Below, piece after piece: positions 8,897-33,823 of a stretch of 48,524 bases of DNA; position 1 is the first letter of the stretch, and each line of letters starts with the position of its first letter. Position numbers and translations under genes: made by a program. Origin of the DNA: Phycisphaerae bacterium (GTDB lineage Bacteria; Planctomycetota; Phycisphaerae; Tepidisphaerales; Tepidisphaeraceae); NCBI GenBank assembly GCA_025936175.1, contig JAICTV010000012.1, positions 1 to 48,524 of the forward strand, given 5' to 3'. Under the pieces are notes generated by a model. That model did no database searches. It was not told the DNA's origin and saw only the letters and a program-made list of their open reading frames with translations.

Positions 8897-12400
<3,504 letters not shown>

Positions 12401-12447: not shown

Positions 12448-13821
12448 TTATTTGACGCCGTTGTGACGCGGTTCAAACCGTTTTCGCGGGCGAGCCCAGC
12501 GATTCGCAAGTGCTTCCACGCTTCCCCGCCCGCAAGCGGACGCCGCAAGAATTGCCGCACCAAGGCTCGTCGGCTCCTCGCATTCCATCGCGACGAAGGG
12601 CACACCGAGCACGTCCGCCTTCATCTGCAGCCAGAAATCATTCTTCGCCGCGCCGCCCGCCGAGCGGATTTCGCTGGGGCGATCATTACCGCACAGTTGC
12701 TCGACCTGCCGATTCAACGCCTGCGCGACCGAGAACATGATCGCGCGCACGACCTGTCCCGACGTGTGCTCCGGCCGAACATTTCGAAACGACTTCTCGA
12801 TCGATCCGCGATCGTCGTATGGCTCGATAACCAGATCCGATGCCGACGCCGCTTCAGCGAGTTGGGTCAGCTTCTCGAAGCTCGGCCGATCCGGCAGCGA
12901 GTTGCGATACCACTCGAGCAGGTTCGCCGATGTGCTGGAGAAGCTCATCTGGAAGAACCGATGGGCGCGGAACGCGGGACCCTGAAAAATCTCGGGTCGG
13001 TCTTCGAATCGATCCGAGCACCGCACCGCCGCCAGCACGGTCCCGGTCGTCTCGCACACACGTGCCGATTCGGTCGTCCCGGTCCCGATCGCGCCGGCGT
13101 ACTGGTCGAGGGTCCCGACGACGAAGCGACATGACGAAGGCAGACCCATTTCCGCCGCTACTTCGTTTCGCAACGCCCCAAGCTCGGTGCCCGCGCGCGA
13201 GACGGGCGGCATCTGATCCATCCGCATCCCGATCCGCGCGAGCATCTCGTCCCACCAGCCAAACGCCTTGACGTCCATCGCGCCGCTGATCCCCGCGACG
13301 CCGCCTTCGGTTGCATGCCGGCCGGTCATCCACAGCGTGAACAGGTCGCTGAGGTAGCAAAGGCGTTTGGTTTGTTCCAGCATCCGCGCATTCGTCTGCT
13401 TCCATCGCAGCACCTTCGCCAGTGCCAGCCCGGGACTCAAGCGCGGCATCCCGGTGCGCTGCTGAAACTCCGGAAGTTGCGAGATCGATTCCATCTCGTC
13501 GCGAAGCTCCGCCGCCCGTTGGTCCGGCCAGAGGACGATCGGCATCAGCGCCTCGTCGTGTTCGTCCAGCAGAACAAAGCTGTTCGCCTGCGTCGCGAAC
13601 GAGACCGCCGCGACGTCATCGAACGCGCCAACTTTCTCGCGCAGCGCCCGCGCCGCTTCCAGCAGCGCCTGACGAAATGTCCGCGGATCCATCTCCCACC
13701 AGTCGGGCTTCGGATGCAGCACCTGCGGCGTGACGCGCTGCAGCGCCAGCATCTTCCCCGTCTCGTCAAACAGCGCCACCTTGTAGAGCGTTGTGCCGAG
13801 ATCGAAGGTGAGGAATTTCAT
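12448..13821 (-). CDS. FGGY-family carbohydrate kinase (xylulokinase-like)
   Basis: A 457-residue cytoplasmic sugar kinase. The N-terminal phosphate loop is FDLGTTLYKVALFD (residues 5-18). The second domain has VGTLDQYAGAIG, whose Asp is the expected catalytic base, then ETTGT and the late motif SAGGAAKNDFWLQMKADVLG. The sugar cannot be read from sequence; xylulokinase-like is the closest general description. The conserved protein starts at 13821, but this start has no ribosome-binding site because a family-B element ends 1 bp before it. The frame stays open through the element to an ATG at 13890, which overlaps the upstream stop as ATGA. A 23-residue element-encoded extension is therefore possible. 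It is in the leftward operon with the ceramidase-like gene. Confidence 0.88.
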   Translation of the reverse strand: MKFLTFDLGTTLYKVALFDETGKMLALQRVTPQVLHPKPDWWEMDPRTFRQALLEAARALREKVGAFDDVAAVSFATQANSFVLLDEHDEALMPIVLWPDQRAAELRDEMESISQLPEFQQRTGMPRLSPGLALAKVLRWKQTNARMLEQTKRLCYLSDLFTLWMTGRHATEGGVAGISGAMDVKAFGWWDEMLARIGMRMDQMPPVSRAGTELGALRNEVAAEMGLPSSCRFVVGTLDQYAGAIGTGTTESARVCETTGTVLAAVRCSDRFEDRPEIFQGPAFRAHRFFQMSFSSTSANLLEWYRNSLPDRPSFEKLTQLAEAASASDLVIEPYDDRGSIEKSFRNVRPEHTSGQVVRAIMFSVAQALNRQVEQLCGNDRPSEIRSAGGAAKNDFWLQMKADVLGVPFVAMECEEPTSLGAAILAASACGRGSVEALANRWARPRKRFEPRHNGVK

Positions 13822-13822
13822 T

Positions 13823-13883
13823 CGTGGCACGGGCGCCTCGCCCGTGATTGACAGGGAAACACGGACGAGCCGCCCGTGCCACG
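13823..13883. repeat. Family-B palindromic element abutting a start codon
   Basis: The left arm begins cgtggcacgggcgcctcgcc and the right arm is its near-perfect inverse (ending gcccgtgccacg), with a short AT-richer centre. It fills almost the whole gap between the ceramidase-like gene (stop at 13887) and the kinase start (13821). It leaves 1 bp before the kinase ATG and takes the place of a ribosome-binding site. Confidence 0.85.
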
Positions 13884-13886
13884 TGA

Positions 13887-15215
13887 TCATTGTGACGTCA
13901 GCAGTTCCAGCGTCGTTTTTACCAGCATTTCGCCGCTTTCGGGGCTTTTGAAGATCGCGTTCTGCGATTCGTAACCGCCTTCTTCCGCCGCCGCGCGGGT
14001 GACGAGATAGCCCTGAAGCTCGCCGTTGGCGTAGGAGATGATGAAGGTGTTCGGCCGCCGTCTTTTAACCTCCAGCGCGAACTCGATGAACATCTCGCCG
14101 GGCCAGGCGACGAAGGTCCACGGGCCGATCGTGATCGCCTGCACCTCGGCGGGCATGACCGCGTTTGCCGCCTGCGCGACGCGACCTTCCGCCGCCGCGC
14201 GGGCGAGCGTCAGCGTCTCCTGCGCGCCGAACCAGTCGACTTCCGCCGTTCGGATCGCCGTGCGCGGCGCGTTCTCGCGCTTGAGCTGCTCTAACCGCGC
14301 CACGGCGCGCCTTAGTCGCTCGCGCGCGTCGATCTCGTTCGGGAACGATCGCAGCGGCAGCGTCAGGTTCGCGTGCCGGCATTCGATTGATGCGACGTGG
14401 CGATATTCGATCGACGCGATTGCCTTCGTCGCCGCGCCGGCCAGGATCTTGCCGAGCCGCTCGGCTTCGTCGAACGTGTTCGCCTTGGTCACGTGCCGCG
14501 GGCTCTGATTTCCCGCCGGGCCGGTGTGATAGAGCACCACGCACTCTTCGCCGAGCACGTTCTTCTGAAGTTGAATCCGCGCCAGCCCGGGAAAATCGCC
14601 GCTGACCAACGTCGAGTCCTCGTGCAGCACCGTCGGGTGCATCGAGCAGGCCATCATCGCCGCGATCGGCTTGTGGCGTTCGAGATCGCGCACGACCATC
14701 ACCGGCACGTCGAGATCGCGCGGCCCGTTCGGATCGCGCCGGTTCGTGCCGACGCCGGTCGCGTCCGCGACGGCGAGCCCAACCTCCGCCGGCGTCATCC
14801 GCCCCGTCGCGCGCGTCGCCGCCTCGACAATTGCATCTTCTACGAACGCGATATAAGCGACATCCGCCTTCGGCACCGCCTGGTCATCTTGAGTCGCGAT
14901 CGGGTCGAGCATCTTCGGCCCCGAGTGCGTGTGCGTCGCCGAGACCAGGATGTTCTCCGCCGGCACACCGGTCTGATGCGCGATGCGCTTGCGCACGCGC
15001 ATCACCGACTGCCTCGACAGGTAAATGATGTCGTTCCCGATGATCAGAACTCGCGTCCCGCCGGATTCCAGGCAGAGTGCCGAGCTCAAGAGTGGGTCAT
15101 GAATCCCGGTGCTGTCGCGCCCGACGTGGGGGTATCCGGCCAGGAAAATGGACTGTTGAGGCGTGATTTCGACCGCCGCGGTTCCGGCAGAGATTTGCAT
15201 TTGTTTCCCAGCCAT
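13887..15215 (-). CDS. Neutral/alkaline ceramidase-like amidase, cytosolic
   Basis: A 442-residue protein related to the N-terminal catalytic domain of neutral ceramidases, zinc amidases. Supporting motifs are AVEITPQQSIFLAGY near the start, SATHTHSGP (the family's zinc-binding His region, about residue 90), CSMHPTVL (about 190) and YHTGPAGNQSPR. A Glu/Tyr-containing C-terminal region (ISYANGELQGYLV) matches the family's final metal site. No signal peptide is seen, so the substrate is likely intracellular. Many bacterial members are not ceramidases, and here the neighbours (sugar kinase, NagB-like enzyme, Gfo/Idh) suggest hydrolysis of an amide on a sugar-derived molecule; that is inference. 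The start could instead be the ATG at 15200. First gene of the leftward operon. Confidence 0.85.
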   Translation of the reverse strand: MAGKQMQISAGTAAVEITPQQSIFLAGYPHVGRDSTGIHDPLLSSALCLESGGTRVLIIGNDIIYLSRQSVMRVRKRIAHQTGVPAENILVSATHTHSGPKMLDPIATQDDQAVPKADVAYIAFVEDAIVEAATRATGRMTPAEVGLAVADATGVGTNRRDPNGPRDLDVPVMVVRDLERHKPIAAMMACSMHPTVLHEDSTLVSGDFPGLARIQLQKNVLGEECVVLYHTGPAGNQSPRHVTKANTFDEAERLGKILAGAATKAIASIEYRHVASIECRHANLTLPLRSFPNEIDARERLRRAVARLEQLKRENAPRTAIRTAEVDWFGAQETLTLARAAAEGRVAQAANAVMPAEVQAITIGPWTFVAWPGEMFIEFALEVKRRRPNTFIISYANGELQGYLVTRAAAEEGGYESQNAIFKSPESGEMLVKTTLELLTSQ

Positions 15216-18406: not shown

Positions 18407-18409
18407 ACC

Positions 18410-18476
18410 GTAGCATGGGCGTCTCGCCCATGCGGTTTCGCCGCGGGAAAGGGCATGGCCGAGACGGCCATGCTAC
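18410..18476. repeat. Family-B palindromic element abutting a start codon
   Basis: The left arm is gtagcatgggcgtctcgccc (continuing atgc) and the right arm is its imperfect inverse ending ggccatgctac. It starts 4 bp after the aminotransferase stop and ends 2 bp before the ATG of the oxidoreductase at 18479. It therefore fills the whole intergenic gap and replaces any ribosome-binding site. Confidence 0.85.
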
Positions 18477-18478
18477 GA

Positions 18479-19646: not shown

Positions 19647-19725
19647 TGTCATCCCGAGGTACTCCGAGGGATCTCGGACGCCGCTCGTCACCGAGATCCC
19701 CCGCGGAGTACCGCTCGGGATGACA
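19647..19725. repeat. Family-A palindromic element
   Basis: A 79-bp inverted repeat starting tgtcatcccgaggtactccg and ending with its near-complement cggagtaccgctcgggatgaca. It occupies most of the gap between the oxidoreductase and dipeptidase genes. The same family occurs at 25239, 30423, 32377, 33716 and 48507. Confidence 0.9.
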
Positions 19726-25238: not shown

Positions 25239-25306
25239 TGTCATCCTGAGGTCCTCCGAAGGATCTGGGTGCGGCAGGAAGATGCTTCGGAGTACCTCAG
25301 CATGAC
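25239..25306. repeat. Family-A palindromic element, degenerate right end
   Basis: Starts tgtcatcctgaggtcctccg and ends cggagtacctcagcatgacg. The final base departs from the family end (gatgaca). It lies in the 275-bp divergent region between shc and the hpnO-like gene, where promoters for both are expected. Confidence 0.8.
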
Positions 25307-25373
25307 GGGCTGGTCACAGCGGCGCTAAAAAGCGGCTCGACCCGCTCGCGGAGAAGTTGGGCAGGATTTACGG

Positions 25374-32376: not shown

Positions 32377-32451
32377 TGTCATCCCGAGGTACTCCGAGGG
32401 ATCTCGGACACCAGTGACGATCGAGATCCCTCGGAGTACCTCGGGATGACA
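32377..32451. repeat. Family-A palindromic element, perfect 30-bp arms
   Basis: Arms 32377-32406 (tgtcatcccgaggtactccg + agggatctcg) and 32422-32451 are perfect inverse complements over 30 bp, with a 15-bp centre. This is the best-preserved family-A copy in the window. Confidence 0.95.
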
Positions 32452-32689
32452 GGTCCTGATGCTTCGCGCAGGGCGTTAACCGATCGCACCCTGATGGCAC
32501 CGGCGCGCAATGTTGCCGGAGTACCGGGGAGAGGGAAGCGGAAAAACGAACCCAATCGAAGCCAACGCAAAACCGCGTTGGCGGGGTCAAAAATGCTGAA
32601 AGGAGGTGATTTGGACCCCACGCGGATTACAAAACGAAGCCAACGGCGCACGGCGGCGCGCGCATCCTGAGGAGAGCCGCCCTCGCGGT

Positions 32690-33661: not shown

Positions 33662-33715
33662 GCGAGGCTCCTTTGCGTCAGCGTCAGGGCAAGTGGCGCG
33701 GTTTACGTAGCAACC

Positions 33716-33790
33716 TGTCATCCCGAGATGTTCGGAGGGATCGCGGACGCCAGTGGTCACCGAGATCCCTGGGAATACCTCGGGATGACA
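33716..33790. repeat. Family-A palindromic element
   Basis: Starts tgtcatcccgagatgttcgg and ends gaatacctcgggatgaca. The arms are imperfect. It lies between hpnE and the outer-membrane protein gene, both read leftward, so it may affect how much of the transcript reaches the downstream gene. Confidence 0.88.
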
Positions 33791-33823
33791 GCACTCGCGC
33801 CCGCTACGCAACCGAGGGCTCGA

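Follow-up and report, generated by a model that had tools for sequence, protein, structure and literature searches.

A REPIN between a ceramidase and a carbohydrate kinase gene of a planctomycete, and a candidate re-initiation start upstream of it

The hairpin that fills the junction between a ceramidase gene and a sugar kinase gene in the window (i.e., the whole stretch analysed, 48,524 nucleotides of a Phycisphaerae bacterium contig) is a REPIN: it pairs two GTRG-headed REP units, and the family to which it belongs is numerous in the same genome. We are highly confident of the insertion and of its type; it is a known kind of insertion that involves no new ribosome-binding device, and is ordinary in itself. 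The best explanation of the junction as a whole, which we hold with modest confidence, is that a REPIN was inserted and that translation of the kinase re-initiates at an ATG on its far side, at position 13890.

Layout of the ceramidase-kinase junction

All the features of the junction are read on the minus strand. The upstream gene, a member of the neutral/alkaline ceramidase family (PF04734; 15215-13887), ends in TGA at 13889-13887, which is followed by TCAC, the 59-bp hairpin element (13882-13824; 61 nt if the flanking C and G are included), the dinucleotide GA, and the ATG of the kinase at 13821-13819. Thus, the stop codon lies 4 nt ahead of the element, the kinase ATG 2 nt past it, and the spacing between the stop and this ATG is 65 nt. 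In the sense orientation the junction reads ...GTCACA ATGA TCAC [GTGGCACGGGCGGCTCGTCCGTG-TTTCCCTGTCAAT-CACGGGCGAGGCGCCCGTGCCAC] G A ATG AAA TTC. The downstream gene (13821-12448) encodes an intact FGGY carbohydrate kinase (PF00370 and PF02782) of 457 amino acids when read from 13821, beginning with MKFLTFDLGTT. A second ATG, at 13890-13888, forms a 4-nt overlap, ATGA, with the ceramidase stop; it is situated 69 nt, or 23 codons, ahead of the ATG at 13821 in the same frame, which stays open through the element. Since the FGGY_N domain starts at residue 27 of this extended reading frame, and the aligned kinases of relatives have their starts a few residues ahead of that conserved core, 13821 was accepted as the conserved start. 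An earlier note on this DNA had placed the element against 13821, the ATGA at 13890, and an open frame of 23 extra residues between them, and all of these positions proved correct. It had further held that no Shine-Dalgarno (SD) sequence was possible, which applies to the normal window before 13821 but not to the 3' arm of the element, where a GAGG (13839-13836), sequestered in the stem, is located 14 nt before 13821 and five nt before an in-frame GTG (13830-13828).

Identity of the element

The REPIN (13882-13824, minus strand) comprises two inverted, GTGG-headed REP units, both 23 nt long and separated by a 13-nt spacer. The 5' unit, GTGGCACGGGCGGCTCGTCCGTG (13882-13860, minus strand), differs from the consensus at two positions, while the 3' unit, read on the plus strand as GTGGCACGGGCGCCTCGCCCGTG (13824-13846), is identical to it. 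In the consensus half, GTGG is followed by CACGGGCG-NNN-CGCCCGTG, a palindrome with an 8-bp stem and a 3-nt loop, and the two halves are inverted; copies elsewhere carry either GTAG or GTGG as their head. The genome assembly (5.5 Mb in 384 contigs) contains 22 exact doublets, the reversed control pattern having given none, and its unit matches at no more than one mismatch number 75/69 (about 144), mostly at gene boundaries and often as inverted pairs. The element alone folds at -50.5 kcal/mol, and a 141-nt RNA spanning the junction at -62.1 kcal/mol (z = -5.95 against shuffles); this z score and the 22-to-0 count of doublets together argue that the hairpin is not a product of chance. Matches to the REP unit were found in 19 of the 61 genomes searched, including its own, with over 400 in some, and they are many in several genomes of the same family.

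An AATGA near both ends of the element was considered as a target-site duplication and rejected, as the mean longest flank repeat genome-wide was 1.58, against 1.75 in shuffled pairs. Single-strand transposition by Y1 enzymes is not expected to leave such a duplication, and flanks without one are in keeping with a REP or REPIN. A search for a closely related strain with an empty site found none, the nearest kinase orthologue being 53% identical, and no relative of the kinase was confirmed in the GTDB contig collection.

Three Y1 transposases of the genome match the NCBI model of REP-associated tyrosine transposases (RAYT), below its curated cutoff. One of them lies within a complete 700-bp transposon (L094:4727-5426, on contig C191), arranged as GTAG-REP, RAYT and REP-CTAC; its NF047646 score of 75.4 is just below the cutoff of 80, while Pfam Y1_Tnp was matched above cutoff. 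Its GTAG...CTAC REP ends flank the RAYT gene and share the stem type of the family, as a GTAGCATGGGCG variant that is not an exact copy of the kinase element. This transposon sits in frame within an open reading frame for a DinG-like helicase (L094:2926-6210; 1094 amino acids) that has no internal stop. A RAYT transposase probably mobilised the REPIN at the kinase junction.

The closest known elements are the GTAG-tagged REP families, which include GTAG-20 of Opitutus terrae, with a mostly GTGG head; they form inverted dimers, and copies touch or overlap genes, many at the N-termini of open reading frames, where the real start may follow the repeat (PMC3733652). Our element, whose stem is CACGGGCG/CGCCCGTG, resembles them in head and layout: a GTRG tetranucleotide with a palindrome of 6-9 bp behind it, inverted dimers, and a location adjacent to or overlapping genes. 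It departs from them in the frequency of very tight junction placement in its genome (PMC3733652). It is also similar to the REPIN/RAYT systems in having two inverted REPs with a short spacer and a RAYT gene in the genome, although here the spacers vary, a complete REP-RAYT-REP unit resides inside a helicase gene, and the system is known from sequence alone (PMC3116915).

Placement of copies in the genome

Genes were called with a home-made codon-usage predictor trained on 52 stretches of the genome, and placement was scored for 53 element copies, both flanks being resolved in 36. For 21 of these, the residual gap is no longer than 27 nt, although gaps of up to 30 nt make up just 2.2% of intergenic insertion points. 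In eight genes the initial ATG is 1-5 nt away from a copy, namely the kinase, a Gfo/Idh/MocA oxidoreductase (window 18479), and genes at L055, L066, L071, L080, L082 and L083. The 7 nt or so that flank the copies are rich in AT (0.62); the same preference is seen in copies inside genes (0.54, against 0.35 in coding DNA), which suggests that target preference, besides survival, may favour gene ends. The abundance of copies beside stop and start codons would then follow from AT-rich flanks and dense gene packing. That all such repeats target junctions was rejected, since only 4 of 16 copies of a different, longer element in a relative (G021) lie in gaps below 50 nt.

Several individual copies deserve description. 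A second REPIN of the window (18409-18477) begins 3 nt past an upstream stop and ends 2 nt before the ATG of the Gfo/Idh/MocA oxidoreductase, an arrangement like that of the kinase. L083 (2536-2603) provides a second case of an ATGA start whose frame runs across the REPIN: with GGAGG upstream, it leads into the gene of a pectate-lyase-like protein, and the ATG belonging to that gene follows the REPIN at a distance of 1 nt. Copies also occur in frame within genes: a REPIN-type repeat at window 11766-11866 in an open reading frame of 1167 amino acids (8897-12400), and, by Pfam assignment, REPINs in a UvrA gene (L078:2477-2546) and in a gene for the large chain of carbamoyl-phosphate synthase (L075:117-177). 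A separate family of palindromic repeats (TGTCATCCCGAGGTACTCCGAGGGATCTCG...) is found at window 32377-32452, 33715-33791, 19647-19722 and 25280-25309.

Many stop codons of the genome are 1-17 nt from a copy, a proximity that bears on what the insertion does. REPs situated no more than 15 nt from a stop codon have been described in E. coli as stalling ribosomes and reducing translational output (Liang 2015, as cited in PMC12306157). By the same token, the main effect here might be lowered expression: ribosomes terminating on the ceramidase would stall at the hairpin, which lies 4 nt beyond the stop, and the kinase would lose its coupling and be made poorly. An effect of the REPIN on termination of the ceramidase itself is possible by analogy. 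We regard lowered expression as the main effect as rather unlikely; it is compatible with a start at either 13890 or 13821, but the reading frame of the kinase is intact and conserved, so that the protein is presumably still being produced and maintained by selection.

The ribosome-binding site and the relatives

The earlier note had proposed that the element replaces the ribosome-binding site of the kinase gene. Eight conserved ceramidase-kinase pairs were retrieved from relatives, and none of the eight carries the element. In five of them the kinase start is nevertheless located within -4 to +6 nt of the ceramidase stop (L028, -4, also as ATGA; L026, -1; L029, +1; L031, +4; L023, +6), and it is farther away in L022, L024 and L025. 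The tight arrangement is therefore found where the element is absent, an outcome that the earlier note had itself named as refuting its proposal. Furthermore, a clear SD sequence before the kinase was looked for in the four same-family relatives (L022-L025), all free of the element, and none was seen; in the class-level relatives L026, L029 and L031, GGAG or GGGAG occurs inside the end of the ceramidase gene. In the genome itself, only about 31% of the genes with an ATG start have an SD core, compared to 10% in shuffles. As SD absence is normal in this genome, there is no sign that an SD was lost at the junction, and these results taken together lend no support to replacement of a ribosome-binding site by the element. 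A 16S gene, sought in the assembly for a check of the anti-SD, was not found.

Choice of the kinase start

The cost of opening the RNA from -20 to +15 around each candidate start was computed and compared with 92 control genes. Opening at 13821 costs 35 kcal/mol, which exceeds 90 of the controls and is reached by the other two, whereas opening at 13890 costs 21 kcal/mol, which about 20% of the controls reach; for a ribosome terminating at the ceramidase TGA, the additional opening cost for 13890 is almost nil. The spacing of the two candidates also differs. Coupled pairs overlap or are separated by up to about 10 nt, as is true of ATG 13890 but not of 13821, and the -4 overlap is the commonest single tandem spacing in the genome (12 pairs). 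In E. coli and Haloferax volcanii, re-initiation is nearly lost at a spacing of about 20-38 nt (PMC10666635), although coupling across longer gaps has been reported in other work as cited there. Given its distance of 65 nt from the stop, 13821 should be uncoupled, while 13890 keeps the -4 overlap. No SD was found before ATG 13890.

In an AlphaFold model of the extended kinase, residues 1-15 had pLDDT values below 50 and the first strand began at residue 25, and the 23-residue extension is thus predicted to be a disordered tail. The openness of the frame is itself weak evidence, since 69% of element frames are open and about a quarter of insertions would join the genes in this way by chance. 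Two routes had been suggested in the earlier note, re-initiation at 13890 or recruitment of ribosomes to 13821 by the hairpin. The overlap with an open frame, the low opening cost, the coupling range and the predicted tail make the former the better supported, though unproven, while the opening cost of 35 kcal/mol makes recruitment by the hairpin unlikely.

The conserved ATG at 13821 could also be used without any recruitment, through SD-independent initiation beside the hairpin, possibly on a near-leaderless mRNA generated by cleavage of the hairpin, the open frame from 13890 being coincidental. It is the conserved start, and its start-codon accessibility (0.44) equals that of the controls (0.44). 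At L066 and L071, for instance, where an ATG is 1-5 nt from a REPIN, no start is possible upstream, which argues that initiation beside a REPIN probably occurs; Planctomycetes, moreover, are among the phyla with few SD genes and with a leaderless/RPS1 signal (PMC5397173). A wider set of about 15 similar tandem junctions mostly offers no in-frame start upstream of the element, so that the genes there must start inside or just after it, even where opening takes as much as 45 kcal/mol, and the kinase could do likewise. Against this stand the opening cost at 13821 and its 65-nt distance from the stop, beyond the range over which re-initiation operated in the experiments of PMC10666635. We consider sole use of 13821 a tentative alternative, of appreciable but lesser probability.

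It is also conceivable that the element brings its own start, with the GAGG at 13839-13836 and the in-frame GTG at 13830 being exposed on opening of the hairpin and yielding a product that begins VPR-MKF.... The GAGG is five nt ahead of the GTG, and the same arm provides an in-frame GTG or ATG at L080, L082 and window 18410. Nonetheless, the SD and the GTG are both buried in the stem, with an opening cost of 37 kcal/mol, and the distances from starts to elements show no preference for the required frame. For the latter reason, element-supplied GTG or ATG codons were rejected as a general mode of starting, and for the kinase we judge a start at 13830 very improbable. ATG 13890 remains the likelier start in our judgement, as an inference about evenly balanced between acceptance and doubt.

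Proposed course of events

In relatives without the element, the ceramidase and kinase genes are adjacent and mostly tightly spaced. We envisage that a REPIN entered such a junction and survived because neither reading frame was broken. The conserved ATG would have been left 65 nt past the stop, behind a hairpin of about -50 kcal/mol, and coupling would have been kept through re-initiation at the ATGA of 13890. The re-initiating ribosome would then read through the hairpin and produce a kinase with a disordered N-terminal tail of 23 residues (MITWHGRLVRVSLSITGEAPVPR), and some initiation may take place at 13821 as well. Such an event would resemble known termination-reinitiation at ATGA in the overlap of stop and start and the open downstream frame, but would differ from it in that the first 23 codons are mostly those of a mobile element rather than native, and the coupling here is putative (PMC6728339, PMC10666635). 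A broader view, that the REPINs of this lineage act as movable modules that supply either in-frame N-terminal tails after a coupled ATGA start (as in the kinase and the pectate-lyase-like protein of L083) or GTG/ATG starts from the 3' arm, appears improbable to us.

Overall, the junction is ordinary REPIN biology together with one testable question of translation. In this REPIN-rich planctomycete, hairpins repeatedly fill gene junctions up to the start codon, which offers a natural test both of how SD-poor bacteria initiate translation next to a strong hairpin and of the possibility that repeats become translated N-terminal tails.
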